From Gammaproteobacteria bacterium (GTDB taxonomy: Bacteria; Pseudomonadota; Gammaproteobacteria; GRL18), in NCBI GenBank assembly GCA_016744995.1, contig JADGDG010000001.1:412011-476010 (forward strand): a stretch of 64,000 nucleotides of DNA, read 5' to 3'. A program made the position numbers and the translations under genes. Under the pieces are notes generated by a model. That model was not told the DNA's origin. It searched no databases and saw only the letters and a list, made by a program, of their open reading frames with translations. Of the stretch, positions 1 through 14,259 are shown one piece after another (positions within the stretch are counted from its first letter, which is position 1; each line of letters opens with the position of its first letter).

Positions 1-1223
1 AGGTTGAAGATATCCCTGTAGAAAAGGTCATTCAGTATATTAAAGGCACCGCTGATAAAATAGGGATGTCCTTCAGCACACAAAACCTGTCAAGCAACGA
101 TATTGTGGGACTTAAAAAAACCACCGTCGATGGCCAGCCTGCCGCTAAAGCCACCAGTCACATTCGGCTGTTTACCATCACTGATGAGGCGTACTCCTAT
201 AAATCAGCCACGCTGGGAGATGCACGTCCCAACCCCTTTGGCGGCTATGCTTCTGGAGCCGTATCGGTGTTTGTACTGCATTTAACATTTTTGAATCTGC
301 ACAGTGCGCTTACAACATTTGATAGAAATGAGTTTCAAGAATCAACTTCAAATATAGGTGCCGCCCTTATGGCCATAGGCAGTGCCACAAATGGCTTGCT
401 CATGGCACTAAAATCGGCAGCGCCGGTATTTTACCGCAAGATCACCGCATATATGATTGTTAATCGACTTGCCCGCACTTCTGCCCTGAGAGTCTTTGGC
501 TATCTCGGTGCCATTTTATCCGGACTCACCGATGCCATCCGCTCCAATAAACGCTTTACCGCTGGCGACGCTGATGCCGGCAGCTATTATGCCTTATCCG
601 CCGCGACCGTGCTGGCCGGCGGTTCTGCAATGACTCATGGGGCCGTACTCTTAGTTACCGGCGCTGGTGCTGCCATACCGGTTATCGGCTGGCTGGTTCT
701 GGGCATAAGCCTGGTCGGTGTCAGTATCTGGGCTACAACAGAAGCTCTTGACAGTACCGACGGCCCGCTGGAACTGTGGCTGGACGCCTGCATTTTCGGG
801 CGAAAGCAATTACCCAATAATCCGCCATACAGTAATCTAATAGAAGAGCAACAGGCCTATATTAAAAAAATGCTGCAGCCGCAGCTAATAAGCAAAGAGC
901 TAAGCCGCTCCGACACTTTCTGGCAGGCAAAGGAATACACCGCCGCTCTGGAATTGTATCTGCCCTCCTATGCTAATAGCAGCAAACTCTCGGTCTCTTA
1001 TGATTTTGAACAGACCAATAGCGCCATAGCAGGGATACGCACCGCAGAGCAGCCTATGCCGTCACCTGAACTCAGTGCTCATCTGCAGGGGGTCAAGGCC
1101 CTGTATGAAGTAACTATTGCGTTGCGCCCCCTCAGTGAAATCCATTTCACCGTCAACTATCAGGCCAGCCCGAATTCCGGTGAAGCCATACAGCAAACCT
1201 ATACCGCCCTGGCGCAGCAATAG
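1..1223 (+). CDS. VasX-like T6SS effector, C-terminal part (partial)
   Basis: The reading frame is open from the window edge (in-frame codons from base 3), so the ATG at 66 is internal and the true start lies upstream. The visible ~407 residues contain several hydrophobic segments: one at about residues 57-80 counted from the internal Met, one near 140-155, and a long glycine/alanine-rich stretch at about 175-225 ending in IPVIGWLVLG. This layout resembles the colicin-like pore-forming C-terminal region of VasX / BTH_I2691-type type VI effectors (family recognition from memory). It is followed after 12 bases by a membrane protein that looks like a cognate immunity protein. The last ~130 residues are duplicated downstream at 2302-2680. 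The toxin assignment is inference; the N-terminal region is not visible. Confidence 0.55.
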   Translation, partial: VEDIPVEKVIQYIKGTADKIGMSFSTQNLSSNDIVGLKKTTVDGQPAAKATSHIRLFTITDEAYSYKSATLGDARPNPFGGYASGAVSVFVLHLTFLNLHSALTTFDRNEFQESTSNIGAALMAIGSATNGLLMALKSAAPVFYRKITAYMIVNRLARTSALRVFGYLGAILSGLTDAIRSNKRFTAGDADAGSYYALSAATVLAGGSAMTHGAVLLVTGAGAAIPVIGWLVLGISLVGVSIWATTEALDSTDGPLELWLDACIFGRKQLPNNPPYSNLIEEQQAYIKKMLQPQLISKELSRSDTFWQAKEYTAALELYLPSYANSSKLSVSYDFEQTNSAIAGIRTAEQPMPSPELSAHLQGVKALYEVTIALRPLSEIHFTVNYQASPNSGEAIQQTYTALAQQ

Positions 1224-2284
1224 CAGAGAAACTTTATGGCAAAAGCAAAACTTTATTTAAACCCTCGTCTGCCATCAGGTGCAGAGCCCTGCGCCGATCT
1301 CAATGCCGATAAAGCCGGCGATTGCTGTCTTGATGTGCACCTTAAGAATTATTCAGGCTTAATCGGCAGAGCTAGGTTTTCCTGGCTGGTTATCTGGGGG
1401 GGAGTTTTTGTTTTTCTTTTATATTTGGTCATAGGAGTCCTTATTGATGCAAGTATACGGGAATTTCTGGAATTACTGCATTGGGCATTAATTTGTGCTT
1501 TGTTACCCGCCGCACCCATCCTGTTTATTACCTATAGAGTCAGCAAAAATCAAAGCCCTTTACGTTTCTGCCGTAAAAACCGCAAGGTCTATCTTTACCT
1601 TAAAAAGAAATTCTATACCTTTAACTGGGACACGATCCACGCCTATACCCAGACCATTGCCATGATCACACCCACAGGCACACCCTATTCTGAGCCGCAT
1701 TTAATTATTGAACTGGATGATAATAAAGATTCGCCCACCTGGGTACTTATCTCAGGCTCTGAAACCTGTAAAAAACCGGTGCCGGCACATTTAGAGTCAT
1801 TAGCCATCTGGGAATACATCCGAGTTTTTATGGAATACGGCCCCGACCATCTGCCTGATCCCGATCCCGATAGCCCTTTGGTCAGCCTGGAAACATTAGT
1901 AGCAACATTACATAAAGAGATAAGCCCTTTTCCCATAGCAGGCAACGGCAATTGGTTCTGGCAAATAATGGCTACCCTGTTTTTCCCTGTGCGAGTGGTT
2001 TTGTTTATTGTCAGTTATCCCACTGACTTCATTTATTATTATTTCCATAAAAAATTCATTAAATCCTTTGTTTTTCCCGAAGAGTTTAAGGTCCCCTCAG
2101 TCAACAACTGTGGTCTGGAACAGGTGGAAGTCCCTCCCACACCATTGCAAAAAAGGCGTGAAGAACTCAAACAAATGGCCAAAGATGATCCCAATATGAC
2201 CTATATCAGCCATGAAACAACTGCCGAAGAACACAAAGAAAAAATTGATAAAGGCTGACAACCACAGGACAGAACATGACAATG
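834..2284 (+). repeat. Tandem duplication, unit 1 (effector tail + immunity gene)
   Basis: Unit 1 begins near TCTAATAGAAGAGC inside the effector gene and ends at CATGACAATG just after the first immunity stop. Unit 2 (2302-3727) begins and ends with the same words. The two units are about 1.45 kb each and lie head to tail. Confidence 0.85.
1236..2258 (+). CDS. Putative T6SS immunity protein, DUF6708-like (copy A)
   Basis: 340 residues starting 12 bases after the effector stop, so probably co-transcribed and translated with it. Two predicted membrane segments lie near residues 48-70 and 80-102, followed by a soluble domain with the conserved run RFCRKNRKVYLYLKKKFYTF and a tryptophan-rich segment. 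The order (membrane pair, then a basic beta-rich domain) matches what I recall of DUF6708 proteins found beside VasX-like effectors, so immunity is the best guess. No enzyme motif is seen. A second copy at 2693-3706 is nearly identical except in the membrane segments and around residues 210-235. That pattern, with divergence restricted to the membrane region, would be expected if it contacts the toxin. Confidence 0.5.
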   Translation: MAKAKLYLNPRLPSGAEPCADLNADKAGDCCLDVHLKNYSGLIGRARFSWLVIWGGVFVFLLYLVIGVLIDASIREFLELLHWALICALLPAAPILFITYRVSKNQSPLRFCRKNRKVYLYLKKKFYTFNWDTIHAYTQTIAMITPTGTPYSEPHLIIELDDNKDSPTWVLISGSETCKKPVPAHLESLAIWEYIRVFMEYGPDHLPDPDPDSPLVSLETLVATLHKEISPFPIAGNGNWFWQIMATLFFPVRVVLFIVSYPTDFIYYYFHKKFIKSFVFPEEFKVPSVNNCGLEQVEVPPTPLQKRREELKQMAKDDPNMTYISHETTAEEHKEKIDKG

Positions 2285-2301
2285 CAGACACCCGAACAAC
2301 C

Positions 2302-2680
2302 ATCTAATAGAAGAGCTACAGGACTCTATTAAAAAATGCTGCAGCCGCCGCGCTTATTAAATAAAGAGCTAAGCAAAGAGCTGAGCCGCTCCGACACTTT
2401 CTGGGAAGCACAGGAATACACCGCCGCTCTGGAATTGTATCTGCCCTCCTATGCCAATACCAGCAAACTCTCGGTTTCCTCCATAGCCGGAGCACGCACC
2501 GCAGAGCAGCCTATGCCGCCACCTGAACTCAGTGCTCATCTGCAGGGGATCAAAGCACTGTATGAAATGACTATTGCATTGCGCCCTCTTAGTAAAATCC
2601 ATTTTACGGTAAACTATCAGGCCAGCCCAAATTCCGGTGAAACCATACAGCAAACTTATAGCGCCCGTGCGCAGCAATAG
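2302..2680 (+). pseudogene. Truncated, frameshifted duplicate of the effector C-terminus
   Basis: This segment repeats the last part of the effector gene. An open frame of 114 codons starts at an ATG (2336) that corresponds to an internal Met of the full gene. Upstream of that ATG the similarity continues to about 2302, but the A-run is six bases (attaaaaaatgctg) where the parent has seven, so the upstream part is out of frame. Relative to the parent it has a small insertion (LLNKELSKELSRS against LISKELSRS) and lacks about eight residues (YDFEQTNS). It has no membrane domain, so it cannot be a pore former. It is best read as an effector remnant left beside a spare immunity gene. Whether the 114-residue frame is translated is unknown. 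Confidence 0.75.
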
Positions 2681-2692
2681 CAGGTAATCTTT

Positions 2693-3706
2693 ATGGCAAA
2701 GACAAAACTTTATTTAAACCCTCGTCTGCCATCAGGTGCAGAGCCCTGCGCTGATCTCAATGCCGATAAAGCCGGCAATTGCTGTCTTGATGTGCACCTT
2801 AAAAATTATTCAAGCTTAATCGGCAGAGGCAGGGGCTCCTGGCTGGTTATCTGGGGGAGTATGTTCATGTATGCACTCTATTTAAGCCTGGGGTTATCTA
2901 CAGGAGGAGGTGGTGGAATACTGAATTTACTATTAATGGCATCAGGCACTGCATTTTTATTATCTGCACCCATCCTGTTTATTACCTATAGAATCAGCAA
3001 AAATCAAAGCCCTTTACGTTTCTGCCGTAAAAACCGCACGCTCTATCTTTACCTTAAAAAGAAATTCTATACCTTTAACTGGGACACGATCCACGCCTAT
3101 ACCCAGACCATTGCCATGATCGCACCCACAGGCACACCCTATTCTGAGCCGCATTTAATTATTGAACTGGATGATGATAAAGATTCACCCACCTGGGTAC
3201 TTATCTCAGGCTCTGAAACCTGTAAAAAACCAGTGCCCGCACATTTAGAGTCATTAGCCATCTGGGAATATATCCGGGTTTTTATGGAGCACGGCCCTGA
3301 CTACCTGCCTGATCCCAATCCCAGAACCCCTTATCTCAGCCTGGAAGAAATAAAATCAGGTAAAAAATTAAATCCTTTTCCCATAGCAGGTGATGATAAT
3401 CTATTCTGGCAAATAATGACCACTCTGTTTTTCCCTGTGCGAGTGATCTTCTTTATTATCACTTACCCTACTGATTTCATTTACTACTATTTCCATAAAA
3501 AATTCATTAAACCCTTTGTCTTTCTCCAAGAGTTTAATGTCCCCTCAGCCAATGACTGTGGTCTGGAACAGGTGGAAGTCCCTCCCACAGCACTGCAAAA
3601 AAGGCGTGAAGAACTCAAACAAATGGCCAAAGATGATCCCAATATGACCTATATCAGCCATGAAACGACTGCCGAAGAACACAAAGAAAAAATTGATAAA
3701 GGCTGA
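2693..3706 (+). CDS. Putative T6SS immunity protein, DUF6708-like (copy B)
   Basis: 337 residues, 12 bases after the effector-tail remnant, exactly the spacing seen in copy A. The first 40 residues, the central soluble domain and the last 40 residues are almost identical to copy A. The differences cluster in the predicted membrane segments (about residues 50-95, with a GGGGG run here) and around residues 210-235. It probably protects against a variant of the same toxin, or is a duplicate with relaxed constraint. No catalytic motif is visible. Function is inferred only from context and similarity to copy A. Confidence 0.5.
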   Translation: MAKTKLYLNPRLPSGAEPCADLNADKAGNCCLDVHLKNYSSLIGRGRGSWLVIWGSMFMYALYLSLGLSTGGGGGILNLLLMASGTAFLLSAPILFITYRISKNQSPLRFCRKNRTLYLYLKKKFYTFNWDTIHAYTQTIAMIAPTGTPYSEPHLIIELDDDKDSPTWVLISGSETCKKPVPAHLESLAIWEYIRVFMEHGPDYLPDPNPRTPYLSLEEIKSGKKLNPFPIAGDDNLFWQIMTTLFFPVRVIFFIITYPTDFIYYYFHKKFIKPFVFLQEFNVPSANDCGLEQVEVPPTALQKRREELKQMAKDDPNMTYISHETTAEEHKEKIDKG

Positions 3707-3925: not shown

Positions 3926-4849
3926 ATGGCAAAAAACATCATTAATCAGTGGGATCCTGATTTTCTCGATAAATCCCTTATTTTTTCTGATCTCAGAATT
4001 CTGTTGAAAGACACACAATGGTCAGAGTGGCCTGGCTGTCAGGGCCTGCTGGCATTATTAGATCAACCTGTGATCCTTTCCAGTGGTCTGCAGCTGGATA
4101 TGCAAGTTCAGGATGAAACATTGCCTTTTCCTGAAATGGCTTATGAAGAAAGGATCTATAAAAAAGGAATCATCAGTACCCGTGAAAAGAACTGGCATGA
4201 TCTTTTTAATGCCTTCATCTGGCTGCTCTTTCCAAAAACAAAAATCCTTCTAAACGATTTACACATGCAAGAATTAGAACAACAGGCAGGGAAAAAGAGA
4301 ACCCCCTGCCGCGATGCCATTACTCATATTGATGAATCTGGAATTATTATTGCCAGCAGTGATGCTGCTCTTTTAAAGGCACTGAAAAATCATCAATGGC
4401 AGGAAGTTTTTTCCGACTCAAGAGAGCTATGGTTTATAAACGAGGGGTTTGTAAATGAAGGGCTTATAAATAAAGAGTTCGTAAGTGAAGGATTAGTAAA
4501 TAACAATTTAGTAGCTAACAATTTGGTAGCTAACAATGAAAAAACAATTGGTGCTTTTGTTTTTGGACATGGAATGTATGAAAAAGCCTTCAAACCATTT
4601 ATAGGCTTTACCGGAAAAGCCTATTGTATTGAGGTCGATAATAATTTTTATCAGCAAGATAAAATCACCCAATATCGCCAGCTGGATCAACTTTTAAGCA
4701 ATGATATTAAAGAAAAAAAATCACTTTCTGATTCAGGATACCTTTCTCCTCTGCCCATTTTAGGCATTCCCGGCTGGGCAGATGAAAACAGAGTTCCAGA
4801 TTTTTATGATAATAAAAATTATTTTCGTCCAAAGAGAAAAAGCACGTAG
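3926..4849 (+). CDS. DUF3025 family protein with internal pentapeptide repeat
   Basis: 307 residues. The family is recognised from the order of motifs: an early WPGCQGLLALLD block, a central FNAFIWLLFPKTK block, and a C-terminal LPILGIPGW followed by FYDN and YFRP, all typical of DUF3025 proteins, whose function is not known. No signal peptide or membrane segment is visible. Between about residues 170 and 204 there is an insertion made of seven five-residue units (FINEG, FVNEG, LINKE, FVSEG, LVNNN, LVANN, LVANN), encoded by 15-bp DNA repeats, which I would not expect in the family. The gene stands alone; a 0.4-kb gene-free region follows. Confidence 0.75.
   Translation: MAKNIINQWDPDFLDKSLIFSDLRILLKDTQWSEWPGCQGLLALLDQPVILSSGLQLDMQVQDETLPFPEMAYEERIYKKGIISTREKNWHDLFNAFIWLLFPKTKILLNDLHMQELEQQAGKKRTPCRDAITHIDESGIIIASSDAALLKALKNHQWQEVFSDSRELWFINEGFVNEGLINKEFVSEGLVNNNLVANNLVANNEKTIGAFVFGHGMYEKAFKPFIGFTGKAYCIEVDNNFYQQDKITQYRQLDQLLSNDIKEKKSLSDSGYLSPLPILGIPGWADENRVPDFYDNKNYFRPKRKST
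4433..4537 (+). repeat. Seven in-frame 15-bp tandem repeats
   Basis: Seven consecutive 15-bp units (from TTTATAAACGAGGGG to TTGGTAGCTAACAAT) inside the DUF3025 gene. The unit length keeps the frame. Units 6 and 7 are nearly identical and the first ones have drifted, so the array looks like stepwise slippage with the newest copies at the 3' side. Confidence 0.85.
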
Positions 4850-4881
4850 TCGCTATTTCACAGTACAAATCAAGTCTTAAT

Positions 4882-4910
4882 GTGATATTTCGTGTCTCAG
4901 GTGATATTTC
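4882..4910 (+). promoter_or_regulatory. Paired direct repeat, candidate activator site
   Basis: GTGATATTTC occurs at 4882-4891 and again at 4901-4910, separated by 9 bases. The second copy continues as GTGATATTTCAC, which is close to a palindrome. The pair lies about 110-138 bases upstream of the predicted start of the sigma-54 transcript at about 5019, which is where enhancer sites for sigma-54 activators normally sit. The regulator is unknown. Confidence 0.4.
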
Positions 4911-4992
4911 ACACCAAAATATTTTAATCAATTTTCATGCCAACAAATAGAATCCTACTGTTATTAAATGAAATATTAAACTTGAAAGTTTT

Positions 4993-5008
4993 TTGGCACA
5001 CTTAATGC
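4993..5008 (+). promoter_or_regulatory. Sigma-54 (-24/-12) promoter
   Basis: TTGGCAC-N5-ATGC: the GG (4995-4996) and GC (5007-5008) are exactly 10 bases apart as required by RpoN, and TGGCAC is the perfect -24 element; only the first T of the -12 TTGC differs. No gene starts on this strand for the next 7 kb (the next is at 12715), and a strong terminator follows at 5177-5207, so the product is probably a non-coding RNA. Confidence 0.6.
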
Positions 5009-5018
5009 TTTATATTAA

Positions 5019-5207
5019 TTAAGTAAAATTAAATAATATACATACTCTCCATATTGTTTAATGTGTTACTTAGAGATTTGAAGACTACGGACTCCTTACT
5101 CGTATTGTTTAAGACTCAAAGCATTAACTTAGCGTCTTGTACTTTAATGTGTTAGTACAGTACGCACAAAACTCTTAGCCCTGCTGGAAACAGTGGGGCT
5201 TTTTTTT
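5019..5207 (+). ncRNA. Candidate sigma-54-dependent small RNA, ~190 nt
   Basis: Bounded by the -24/-12 promoter at 4993-5008 (start expected about 12 bases after the GC) and by a 10-bp GAAA-tetraloop terminator ending in eight T. The interval has no open frame of convincing length on the plus strand. It contains a 12-base word, TTTAATGTGTTA, twice (5057-5068 and 5143-5154). I do not recognise an Rfam family. It could instead be a short untranslated leader or a small peptide gene, but the promoter-terminator pairing favours an sRNA. Confidence 0.45.
5177..5207 (+). terminator. Strong intrinsic terminator
   Basis: AGCCCTG-CTG-GAAA-CAG-TGGGGCT forms a 10-bp stem (two wobble pairs) closed by a GAAA tetraloop and followed by eight T on the plus strand. 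The nearest plus-strand gene ends 330 bases upstream, so it more likely ends the candidate sRNA than the DUF3025 gene. Confidence 0.8.
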
Positions 5208-5253
5208 GGCTAACGGCTTTTTTTGTTTTGGCTAATGGCTTTTTGACCAAAGC

Positions 5254-5691
5254 CTATTCCCACTCAAGGCAACTGAGCAACCATTCACCAGAAACTTTTT
5301 TCCAGCAACTATGCACTTGATAATGTCTGGCATTTTCAGGAATGATATTTTTTCCACCGGTTAAAACCACCTGAGACTGGGCATCAGCCCGAATGGATTG
5401 AACATTGATTGTTGTAGCACTCACATAAACAGAGATATCCTTGTAGCGAAGAAAAAATCCCATCAGCATACGTTGCAATGATCGTTGGTTATTATCCAGT
5501 TGATCCCGATACTGTTCATCAATCACATCCATAAACTTTCCCCGGTCATGGGTTTCAATTGCAGCCTGCAAGTGTTCAATCTGCAACTGAATCATGGCCT
5601 CATCAGTTTTTTCTTCTGTACATCCTGATAATATGATACTAATGAGACTCACCGACAAGAGTATAATAAAAGAGTGTTTTAGTGTGTGCAT
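5254..5691 (-). CDS. Small lipoprotein, NTF2/DUF4440-like domain
   Basis: 145 residues. The N-terminus is a lipoprotein signal with lipobox LSGC (Cys at about residue 23) followed by TEEK, so the mature protein is lipid-anchored in the envelope. The rest, with a helix (LQAAIETHDRGKFMDVIDEQYRD), then strand-rich sequence ending in a conserved W-x-L-x-C-L-E-W, resembles the small alpha+beta NTF2-like fold often seen in secreted proteins of unknown role. It is transcribed alone and converges on the candidate sRNA terminator. A MITE lies just upstream of its start and may carry or interrupt its promoter. No specific function can be assigned. Confidence 0.6.
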   Translation of the reverse strand: MHTLKHSFIILLSVSLISIILSGCTEEKTDEAMIQLQIEHLQAAIETHDRGKFMDVIDEQYRDQLDNNQRSLQRMLMGFFLRYKDISVYVSATTINVQSIRADAQSQVVLTGGKNIIPENARHYQVHSCWKKVSGEWLLSCLEWE

Positions 5692-5711
5692 ATTTTTTAT
5701 AAAACGTCCTT

Positions 5712-5855
5712 GTGTAACTACTCAGCGTGCTTAGATTTTGCCCGAGTTCAAGACATTTTCGCACGGAAAATATGAGCATATAAGTATATGTGACCATTTG
5801 AGTACGAAAATAACGCAGAAATCGGACAAAAGATGAGTACGCTGAGTAGTTACAC
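5712..5855. mobile_element. 144-bp MITE with 17-bp perfect terminal inverted repeats (copy 1)
   Basis: Ends GTGTAACTACTCAGCGT (5712-5728) and its exact reverse complement (5839-5855). The interior contains the palindrome ATTTTC-GCAC-GGAAAAT and no open frame. A closely related element of the same length lies at 52955-53098, and a solo end is at 44509-44523, so this is a dispersed non-autonomous element rather than a local hairpin. It lies 7 bases beyond the ggt stop codon and about 20 bases upstream of the lipoprotein start. Confidence 0.8.
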
Positions 5856-5862
5856 GTGCTTG

Positions 5863-7540
5863 TTAGTTTTTATTTCGTGATACATCAAATACCAGCGCCT
5901 GCCCTTCAACTCTGGGATCAGAGGCAGCCTGAACTCCCTGTGTATAATCCCACTGAATTGCCTGCATATTGCCATAAGATTTATCCTGCCCTTGTAAAAC
6001 ATGCCCCATTTGCTCTAATTGGGCAATCATATCGTCAGACAGTGCCTGCCGTTCATAAAAAATCTTATCCGGTAAATATTGATGGTGAAATCTGGGACGA
6101 CTCACCAGAGCAGAAGGCGAATGCCCTTTCTCCAGCTCAAGGATCCCCAGTAAGACCATGGTGATTATACGACTACCTCCCGGAGTACCCAGGATTGTTA
6201 CACCTTTTTTTGTGTCTACTATGGTCGGACTCATGCTGGATAAAGGTCTTTTTCCAGGCTCAATCGCGTTGGCTTCTGCCCCCACCAGCCCATAAACATT
6301 AGGGGTACCCGGTCGAGCAGAAAAATCATCCATTTCATCATTTAGCAACACCCCCGTTCCCTCTGCAGTAAATCCTGAACCAAAGGGATAATTGATGCTC
6401 ATGGTTGCAGAGACTATATTTCCCTGAGTATCCAATACTGAAAAATGAGTTGTATCCTGGCCTTCAGCCTCTGGTGTTACTACTTCAGCCAGAGTAGAGC
6501 TGGCTGAAGCATGATCAAAGCGAATACTTTCCCTGAGTCCATATGCATACCAGGCATTGGTTAAGCGGGCCACAGGCACCGGGGTAAAGTCACTATCACC
6601 TAAGAATTCTGCCCGATCCCGATAGGCTCGACGCATCGCTTCAACAATCAGATGGATCTGTTGTATTTCATCCAGAGACTGGAGATCAAAATTTTGCAGG
6701 ATTTGCAGTGTGGTTGCCAAAGCAATCCCTCCTGATGAAGGAAGGGGCCACGGAAGTAATGGTCATATCGCGATATTGAAACTGAATCGGCTCACGCTCT
6801 TTGATTGAGTAATTTTTTAAATCACTCAGTTGCCAGTTGCCCTTATTTGCTTTGACTGAATTAATCAGTCGCCTGGCAGTAAAGCCCGTATAAAAATCTT
6901 CATTTCCCGACTTTGCGATGGATTTTAATGTCTCCGCAAGCTCTTTTTGAACAATCAGATGGCCTAAAACCGGCACATTATTGTCCTGTAAAAAAATTCT
7001 GGCTGAGTCTTTATATTTTTGTAAAACAGATAAACGAAAGCGAACCATTTTCTGATAATGTTCTGTGACAGGAAAACCTTTCAGGGCCAGTTCGATGGCT
7101 GGTTGTAAAACCTGTGACAAGGGTAAAACACCATAGTTTTCTGATAAATGCACCATTGCCGCCACAGTACCGGGAATGCCTGCGGCAAGAGGCCCATTGA
7201 CTGAGCTATTGCTAATATAGTTGCCCATCTCATCCAGATACATATCACGCTGAGCAGCTGAAGGCGCCATTTCACGCCCGTCAATCATGGTGGTTTTATT
7301 ATTTTTATGCTCGCGGATCAGCCAGAAGCCACCGCCGCCCAAGCCGGAGCTATACGGCTCAACAACAGCCAGTACAGCAGTAATGGCAACAGCTGCATCA
7401 AAGGCATTACCACCATCAAGTAAAATCTGTTTACCAGCCTGCGTTGCCATGGGATGAGCTGTTGCAATAGCGGCCTGGGGCGGTGAGGCATTGGCAAACA
7501 AAGATGCACAACACATAAGAAAGACTAAAAATTGTTTCAT
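5863..7540 (-). pseudogene. ggt: Gamma-glutamyltransferase, split by a +1 frameshift
   Basis: Two overlapping frames (7540-6686 and 6720-5863) together give a full-length gamma-glutamyltranspeptidase of about 560 residues: signal peptide, GGNAFDAAVA and SSGLGGGGF motifs in the first part; the catalytic Thr in DTTHFSV, then GSGF, PLSSMSPT and GGSRI in the second. At about 6737-6747 the minus strand reads CCCCTTCCTTC where CCCCTCCTTC would restore SVAPPSSGGIALATT, so one extra T breaks the frame. The start is taken at the ATG at 7540, preceded by GAGGTG. GGT matures by autocleavage into two chains before the catalytic Thr; the shift lies well before that point, so the two frames are not simply the two natural subunits. 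Periplasmic enzyme of glutathione breakdown. Either a recent pseudogene or a sequencing error. Confidence 0.85.
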
Positions 7541-7676
7541 AAACACCTCAATTAATTAACCATAGGCTTATAGCATGGGAAATAAATCAAACAAAATCAA
7601 TCTTTATAAGTCTGTAAAATTGAATGAATGGCTCAGAACGATCACAATGATCATATACCGACAGTTTAAATTATCA

Positions 7677-12714: not shown

Positions 12715-14259
12715 ATGAGACATTTTTCGTCTTTTTTACTTTATAGTGAAGCTTTTATGGAATCTATGCAAAAAGTTAGCTTTCCTTTTGCCTACAAGCT
12801 TGCCCTTTCTATGGTGCTGCTTATCACCGCAGGCATGTTGCTGTTAGGAGGGCTGATCATCCATGATCAAAACAAATTACTTGAAAAGCAAATGCATTCT
12901 TATGCCCATATTTTAATTCATCAACTGACTGCCTCATCAACCGATGGTTTTTTAACCTCTGATGCACTTGTTCTGGATGTTCTGGTTAATAATATCTCAC
13001 AATATCCTGAAATTCAGGGCATTGCTTTTTACTCTGAAGATCAACAGAAACGCACAAGCAAGGGTTTGATCCCACCGTCATTTAGCTTTCCTGATGATGT
13101 GACAAAAATTTCCACTCTCTCATGGCTTCCTGACTTACCTGACTCAACAAACTTCAATAATGCTTCCCAGTCATTATTTACCCTGCCATTTTTCTCTCAA
13201 TACAGGCCCTCTTACCTGACCTATATTGGTTTAATCAGTTACAAGAATATTACCATTGGTTATGCTCTGCTGACATTTGATCAAAGTCTGTTGCTACAAG
13301 CCAGAAATAAAACACTTTATACCATTGCATTGACCACAATTGTATTGATTATTTTCAGTATTTTCTTTGCTTTTTTTCTTGGTAAACTTCTTTCCAGACC
13401 TATTGAAGCATTAGTCAAAGCCAGTCATGCTATTTCAAAAGGTGATTATAATATTCACTTTGATGATCGAAGAAATGACGAGTTTGGCATCCTGATGCAT
13501 TCATTAAATCAAATGGCCGATGGTTTATTACACAAGGAATCAGTTGAAAAAGCTTTTTCACGATATCTTTCGCCCACTGTTGCTAAAGAGATTTTAGACA
13601 ATTTAGAGGGCATCAATTTAGGCGGCCAGCAAGTTGAGGCCAGTGTATTATTTGTTGATATTATTGGCTTTACTGAACTTTCACAGACAATGAATCCTGA
13701 AAAAACCAACCAGTTATTAAATGAATATTTTTCTTTAATTACTCAGGCGGCCAATATTAATGGCGGCCATGTTGATAAATTTATGGGGGATTGTGCCATG
13801 TTGGTGTTCGGTGTCCCCAGGCAGGATATTCATCATTCCTACCAGGCAATTTCATGTGCCCTGTTGATCCAGAAAATAATTAATAACTTGAATAAACAAC
13901 GTAAAGCGGTAAATAAAAACCCGATTAATTTTCATATCGCTGCCAATAGCGGCATCATGCTGGCAGGTAATATGGGATCAAAGCAAAGAATGGAATATAC
14001 TGTCATTGGTGATTCTGTTAACCTTGCAGCACGCATTGCCAGCCATGCCCACAATAACGAGGTCGTTATCCCTGACACTATGTTGGCCTGCAAGGGCATT
14101 AAAGAGAACTTTAAAATAGAAAAAAAAGGCTGTATAAATATCCGTGGCCACAAAAAACCCATTACGCTCTACAGGGTTTCTTCATGCGTTAATAAAAATC
14201 AAATCAACCTGACCAGGAATATGGACAAATTACTCAGCTATGATTTTAATGAAAAATAA
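12715..14259 (+). CDS. Membrane class III adenylate/guanylate cyclase with HAMP
   Basis: 514 residues. A membrane segment near residues 26-50, a periplasmic sensor region of about 150 residues, a second segment near 205-225, a HAMP linker (LLSRPIEALVKASHAISKGDYN), then a class III cyclase domain. The two metal-binding aspartates are present (VLFVDIIGFTELS and KFMGDCAMLVFG), as are IGDSVNLAARI and the NSGIMLAGNMGS segment. It makes cAMP or cGMP in response to an envelope signal; the substrate-selecting residues were not resolved. The start may be the ATG at 12757 (GAAG just upstream) instead of 12715. The next gene, a lipoprotein, overlaps its 3' end, suggesting a functional pair. Confidence 0.85.
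   Translation: MRHFSSFLLYSEAFMESMQKVSFPFAYKLALSMVLLITAGMLLLGGLIIHDQNKLLEKQMHSYAHILIHQLTASSTDGFLTSDALVLDVLVNNISQYPEIQGIAFYSEDQQKRTSKGLIPPSFSFPDDVTKISTLSWLPDLPDSTNFNNASQSLFTLPFFSQYRPSYLTYIGLISYKNITIGYALLTFDQSLLLQARNKTLYTIALTTIVLIIFSIFFAFFLGKLLSRPIEALVKASHAISKGDYNIHFDDRRNDEFGILMHSLNQMADGLLHKESVEKAFSRYLSPTVAKEILDNLEGINLGGQQVEASVLFVDIIGFTELSQTMNPEKTNQLLNEYFSLITQAANINGGHVDKFMGDCAMLVFGVPRQDIHHSYQAISCALLIQKIINNLNKQRKAVNKNPINFHIAANSGIMLAGNMGSKQRMEYTVIGDSVNLAARIASHAHNNEVVIPDTMLACKGIKENFKIEKKGCINIRGHKKPITLYRVSSCVNKNQINLTRNMDKLLSYDFNEK

Follow-up and report, generated by a model that had tools for sequence, protein, structure and literature searches.

A free-standing gene for a small RNA (sRNA) of about 187 nt is predicted in an intergenic region of a gammaproteobacterial genome, within the 64 kb stretch of DNA analysed here (called the window below). 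Computation shows the unit of promoter, RNA and terminator with its conservation and its structure, and a complementarity of the RNA to sulfur globule protein (SGP)-like genes at two sites. We consider it likely that the sRNA is controlled by sigma-54 and an enhancer-binding protein and that it pairs with the Shine-Dalgarno regions of SGP-like genes, repressing the synthesis of the sulfur-globule coat. We class the sRNA as a new family of a type already known, with a new predicted regulon; its host group is a family of marine sulfur oxidisers, animal symbionts among them.

Many sulfur oxidisers, among them symbionts of marine animals, store energy in sulfur globules. In the open-access full-text literature, which mostly does not cover subscription journals, no paper was found in which sulfur globule proteins are connected with an sRNA. 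We lean towards the view that this is the first dedicated riboregulator of sulfur storage, a single sigma-54 sRNA that would silence all paralogues of the sulfur-globule envelope through two pairing loops, coupling globule formation to a presumably physiological signal acting through an enhancer-binding protein. The defined promoter and the two defined pairing sites make the control of sulfur storage testable, also in uncultured bacteria, and a sigma-54-driven sRNA family is added to the cases from Vibrio, enterobacteria, Pseudomonas and rhizobia.

Layout of the locus

The original prediction, made from the sequence of the window, placed a regulated sRNA gene in a gap of 400 bases after a DUF3025 gene. 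The gap measures 404 nt, from the stop of the DUF3025 gene (4849), which was confirmed by Pfam PF11227 and has the same orientation as the predicted sRNA, to a convergent gene (5254). The first credible plus-strand gene beyond it begins at 12715, in agreement with the statement that no gene follows on this strand for 7 kb. The elements of the locus are listed in Table 1.

Table 1. Elements of the predicted sRNA locus (positions within the window)
Feature	Position	Strand	Evidence or remark
Weak third enhancer-like site TCGCTATTTCAC	4850-4861	+	matrix score 12.2; conserved in part
Enhancer-like site 1, GTGATATTTCGT	4882-4893	+	conservation, shuffle test, matrix
Enhancer-like site 2, GTGATATTTCAC, near-palindrome	4901-4912	+	conservation, shuffle test, matrix
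Sigma-54-like element TTGGCATGAAAATTGAT, GG-N10-GA	4927-4943	-	conservation; 2-mismatch sigma-54 match
Sigma-54 promoter TTGGCACACTTAATGCT, GG-N10-GC	4993-5009	+	motif scan, conservation
Predicted sRNA, about 187 nt	5020-5206	+	fold z -4.5, covariation, covariance model matches
Stem-loop 1 (SL1), loop UACUCUCCA at 5043-5051	5023-5072	+	complementary to Shine-Dalgarno region of SGP-like genes
Stem-loop 2 (SL2), loop CUCCUUACUC near 5092-5101	5073-5117	+	absent from two family members
Stem-loop 3 (SL3), loop UUUAAUGUGUU at 5143-5153	5132-5165	+	many SGP-like leaders contain a second, complementary site
Intrinsic terminator, GAAA loop and T tract	5177-5207	+	terminator scan, conservation

The near-perfect RpoN promoter with exact GG-N10-GC spacing that had been described is present. 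It is the single match to TTGGCAC-N6-TGCT without mismatches in the window, with no further match at one mismatch; matches with up to two mismatches occurred at chance level (25 observed vs. 22.9 expected). The start of the sRNA, at about 5020, was set 12 nt past the GC of the -12 element. Relative to this start, the enhancer-like sites are located at about -114, -133 and -165, the last being the weak third site, scored with a matrix built from the two main sites. The tandem repeat claimed at enhancer distance was likewise recovered: GTGATATTTC occurs at 4882 and 4901, 19 nt from start to start, and this pair was absent from every shuffled sequence, even with three mismatches allowed.

Between the enhancer-like sites and the promoter, the reverse strand carries TTGGCAT-N8-TGAT, with GA in place of the -12 GC. 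The element is kept by most members of the genus and may act as a divergent sigma-54 site or as a decoy, or may include a site for a bending protein.

The strong terminator with a GAAA loop, expected about 190 bases downstream of the promoter, was found at this distance. Its hairpin (5177-5200) has 10 pairs and is followed by the T tract. Since one terminator in 4500-5900 compares with 0.8 expected by chance, its weight rests on its conservation.

Several features were observed in the flanking DNA. Downstream, a gamma-glutamyltranspeptidase gene (ggt; 5863-7546, minus strand) is broken up into two frames that overlap (5863-6720 and 6686-7546), while both parts are in one frame in a close relative (L126); the split points to a frameshift that would be either a pseudogene or an assembly error. 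Between this gene and the convergent, lipoprotein-like gene there is an inverted repeat (5712-5855) with 38-nt arms, 84% complementary and 68 nt apart, which is MITE- or REP-like. On the other side of the locus, a gene pair is duplicated in tandem (66-3706). The second gene of the pair matches DUF6708, and the upstream gene is longer in the first copy than in the second.

Conservation and structure of the predicted RNA

Relatives of the region were first found by BLAST, and the presence of the sRNA was then determined by a covariance model search, a check suggested along with the original prediction, in 24 genomes of the same family. In 18 of these 24 genomes, all parts of the unit, from the enhancer sites through promoter and RNA to the terminator, are conserved jointly as a single-copy locus, with one copy in the source genome; the promoter-terminator pair, the absence of which from relatives would have spoken against an sRNA gene, is thus retained. 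In G007 there were two covariance matches, each at the end of a different contig, which looks like a single locus split by the assembly.

Preserved in the alignment are the enhancer tandem, with sites of the pattern GYGATATTTCRY, the sigma-54 promoter, the RNA with its invariant loops and the terminator. The mean information per column was about 0.5-0.7 bits in the spacers, 1.3 in the enhancer pair, 1.45 in the promoter, 1.3-1.5 in the stem-loops and 1.97 in the SL3 loop. In most members the neighbourhood is retained as well, with DUF3025 upstream and the convergent lipoprotein-like and gamma-glutamyltranspeptidase genes downstream.

The expected RNA (about 5018-5210) folds with -52.3 kcal/mol, compared to -35.7 ± 3.7 for shuffled sequences (z -4.5). 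The predicted architecture consists of three hairpins followed by the terminator, with the SL1 and SL3 loops both unpaired. When this structure was fitted to 16 sequences, 88% of the cells were paired, a generous figure because the structure was derived partly from the same 16 sequences. Sixteen pairs changed on both sides, giving a covariation score of 0.218 vs. 0.159 ± 0.008 in shuffled and 0.06-0.14 in slid controls. Together with the joint conservation, these base pairs kept through double changes support the regulated sRNA gene architecture that had been proposed. Any single promoter-, repeat- or terminator-like element can arise by chance in AT-rich DNA, but a functionless chance assembly is refuted in practice by elements that are conserved jointly and with covariation in 18 genomes while the spacers drift.

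The locus might also be read as a small mRNA that encodes a short peptide, or as the leader or 3' extension of a gene next to it, since it lies behind the DUF3025 gene in the same orientation and contains short ORFs in single members. No reading frame is common to the family members at this locus, the unit is bounded by a conserved promoter and terminator of its own, and the gene that comes next is convergent, so that we regard such an origin as very improbable.

Some copies deviate from the common architecture. SL2 is missing from L018 (G001:C8) and L019 (G006:C4), and in L016 (G005:C22) the promoter is separated from SL1 by an additional stretch of ~60 nt or more. The 12-nt word TTTAATGTGTTA is present twice in the RNA of the source genome, in the 3' arm of SL1 (5057-5068) and in the SL3 loop (5143-5154), possibly reflecting a duplication or a structural switch.

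The family of the RNA was not recognised in the original prediction, and this holds: no Rfam family reached its gathering score in the window. Sub-threshold Rfam matches to ncS54, NsiR1 and Phe_leader were set aside; all of them cover the terminator-containing 3' part. The covariance model was also run on 369 genomes sampled across the class, where it gave no convincing match outside the family; two out-of-family matches of 35 bits (L062 and L063) were rejected as resting mainly on the terminator.

The named relatives are gammaproteobacterial metagenome-assembled genomes (MAGs), one of them from the lucinid clam Bathyaustriella thionipta (isolate L181_T1). The symbiont of this clam was placed in the order Thiohalomonadales, family SZUA-152 (PMC9938160). 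As the specimen gave two MAGs (PMC9938160), the assignment of the relative to Thiohalomonadales and SZUA-152 is probable.

Complementarity to SGP-like genes

The invariance of the loops suggested base pairing. The stretch immediately before ATG was screened for complements of the SL1 and SL2 loops in all 24 family genomes, and SGP-like genes emerged as predicted targets, of which the original prediction had named none. The SL1 complement TGGAGAGTA yielded 119 matches before ATG vs. 28 for the reversed pattern (hand-summed over the 24 genomes). Among 99 distinct matches, 59 belonged to SGP-like genes, 7 to ZapA-like genes and 13 to others, and 20 lacked a real ORF. The dominant kind of target is an exported, Gly/Asn-rich protein. 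In four target proteins that were scanned, the sole Pfam match was Sulphur globule protein (PF17228) with 14.0-25.9 bits (E 1.8e-5 to 0.097), below the gathering score of 26.7, and the targets are therefore called SGP-like and not SGP.

In these genes, the sequence complementary to loop 1, UGGAGAGUA, serves as the ribosome-binding site. The source genome has five of them (L204-L208), all with a perfect 9-nt SL1 site. The computed binding energy of the SL1 loop to their leaders was -15.3 to -15.5 kcal/mol, better than in 215 of 216 control genes of this genome, and not even a 7-mer of the SL1 site occurred in any of the 216. Because the SGP-like genes were gathered by the SL1 pattern, SL1 matching is circular for this set, and SGP genes lacking the pattern fall outside it; moreover, a Shine-Dalgarno sequence shared by paralogues can be the result of common inheritance. 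Each of the 18 sRNA-bearing genomes has one or more site-bearing SGP-like genes. Of the six genomes in which the sRNA was not detected, three had no site-bearing SGP-like genes in the search and three had them, namely the fragmented assemblies G003, G015 and G017.

The second site is free of this circularity, as SL3 complementarity played no part in the selection of the genes. Of 56 SGP-like 5' regions, 29 had a 9-mer (CAACACATTAAAA) that can pair with the SL3 loop, compared to 2.0 ± 1.3 in dinucleotide shuffles; in the same regions the reversed SL3 motif occurred once and the SL2 complement not at all. After single-linkage clustering at 75% identity, the site was found in 14 of 31 clusters vs. 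1.0 ± 1.0 (at 65%, the leaders formed one single cluster). Its distance to the start codon varies among leaders, and in several it lies close behind a TATACT -10-like box, near the expected 5' end of the mRNA. In the source genome, a clear SL3 match is present in only some of the five SGP-like leaders.

These data bear on the possibility that a real sigma-54-dependent sRNA has its main role elsewhere, for example through the SL2 loop CUCCUUACUC on other mRNAs, while the match to SGP-like genes is an inherited strong Shine-Dalgarno sequence. The SL2 loop is conserved wherever SL2 is present and resembles an anti-Shine-Dalgarno sequence, the SGP-like paralogues are of common ancestry, and three genomes have the site with no sRNA detected. 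Such a role is nevertheless rather unlikely: SL2 complements were not enriched before ATG in the 24 genomes and fell on unrelated genes, two members have no SL2, and the very same leaders show a strong enrichment of SL3 complementarity, located at varying positions. SL2 may be either accessory or intended for other targets.

For the favoured regulation of SGP-like genes, we propose that sigma-54 RNA polymerase would transcribe the trans-acting RNA of ~187 nt when an enhancer-binding protein occupies the tandem sites at -114 and -133. The SL1 loop UACUCUCCA would pair over 9-10 continuous bases with UGGAGAGUA(U) in the Shine-Dalgarno region of SGP-like mRNAs, and the SL3 loop UUUAAUGUGUU would pair with the second site in the 5' leader of many of them. 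Ribosome binding would be blocked, lowering synthesis across the entire SGP-like paralogue family at once, with Hfq probably assisting the pairing. We infer repression rather than activation because of the pairing position in the Shine-Dalgarno region. Alternatively, in a reverse titration, abundant sgp mRNAs could soak up the sRNA.

In several genomes a ZapA-like gene (L178, L183, L189, L190 and L193) starts with TGGAGAGTAACGGATG or TGGAGAGTAATGGATG, and these sequences too are complementary to SL1. At the ZapA-like loci the SL1 site overlaps an apparent upstream coding sequence; the match may be coincidental or mark a second target.

Relation to known sRNAs and candidate regulators

With its own promoter, an intrinsic terminator with a T tract and Hfq encoded in the genome, the predicted RNA shares features of the Hfq-dependent trans-acting class, and it is probably Hfq-dependent. 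Its complementarity to mRNAs suggests that it may regulate them by pairing. Of the 24 family genomes, 21 yielded RpoN and 22 Hfq, the source genome being among them in both cases.

The Qrr sRNAs of the Vibrionaceae, activated by LuxO and SypG, are the nearest model for how the predicted RNA would act; they are Hfq-dependent and pair with mRNAs. In Vibrio, they are preceded by tandem LuxO sites and a sigma-54 promoter, the LuxO motif being TTGCAWWWTGCAA (PMC10162802). The locus described here resembles them in its sigma-54 promoter, tandem upstream enhancer sites, free-standing gene and chain of hairpins leading to an intrinsic terminator, but the predicted sRNA has about 187 nt vs. about 100 in Qrr, and its loops and predicted targets differ. 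Qrr was absent from the Rfam matches in the window, even from permissive lists, and the LuxO site does not occur upstream of the sRNA, where 4850-4992 contains neither TTGCA nor TGCAA. As both the sequence and the enhancer tests failed, the sRNA is not a Qrr.

GlmY and GlmZ of enterobacteria are sigma-54-dependent and activated by GlrR. They are similar in length and in the use of sigma-54 with an enhancer-binding protein, whereas the targets predicted here are SGP-like genes and not glmS; there was no Rfam match to them in the window and no GlrR site (TGTC-N10-GACA) in 4850-4992. Rhizobial CUCC-loop sRNAs such as NfeR1 block Shine-Dalgarno sequences with CU-rich loops, and the exposed UCUCC/CUCCUU loops found here are likewise fit for such pairing. 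Lineage and sequence are different, the pairing extends here over 9-10 nt to one paralogue family, and a second loop matches the same leaders.

CrcZ of Pseudomonas is a sigma-54-dependent decoy RNA, and decoys carry repeated A-rich or GGA motifs for protein binding. Like CrcZ and RsmY/RsmZ of Pseudomonas, the predicted sRNA is a free-standing regulatory RNA, and the existence of sigma-54-dependent decoys, together with the sigma-54 promoter and hairpin chain present here, would be compatible with the sequestration of CsrA or Hfq/Crc, as in RsmZ or CrcZ. Such a function appears highly unlikely: loops 1 to 3 are C/U-rich or UUUAAUGUG instead of repeated GGA or A-rich motifs, conserved GGA is confined to the terminator loop, and the conserved loops are specifically complementary to mRNAs.

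The source genome encodes 22 full enhancer-binding proteins. Family scans of 20 of them named NifA-, NtrC-, GlrR- and LuxO-like proteins, and the 20 enhancer-binding protein regions scanned contained no convincing repeat of the sRNA enhancer motif. Tandemly arranged GYGATATTTCRY sites, at 0-1 mismatches, were found only upstream of this sRNA, which fits a dedicated regulator. As a separate observation, L082 (G000:C35, about 640 kb) is a LuxO-like enhancer-binding protein in a non-Vibrio sulfur oxidiser. Its score against the LuxO model of Vibrio, 673 bits with a cut-off of 800, exceeds those of the other enhancer-binding proteins by far, and with a LuxO-site-like TTGCATTATGCGAA upstream of its gene, a Qrr-type circuit is possible.
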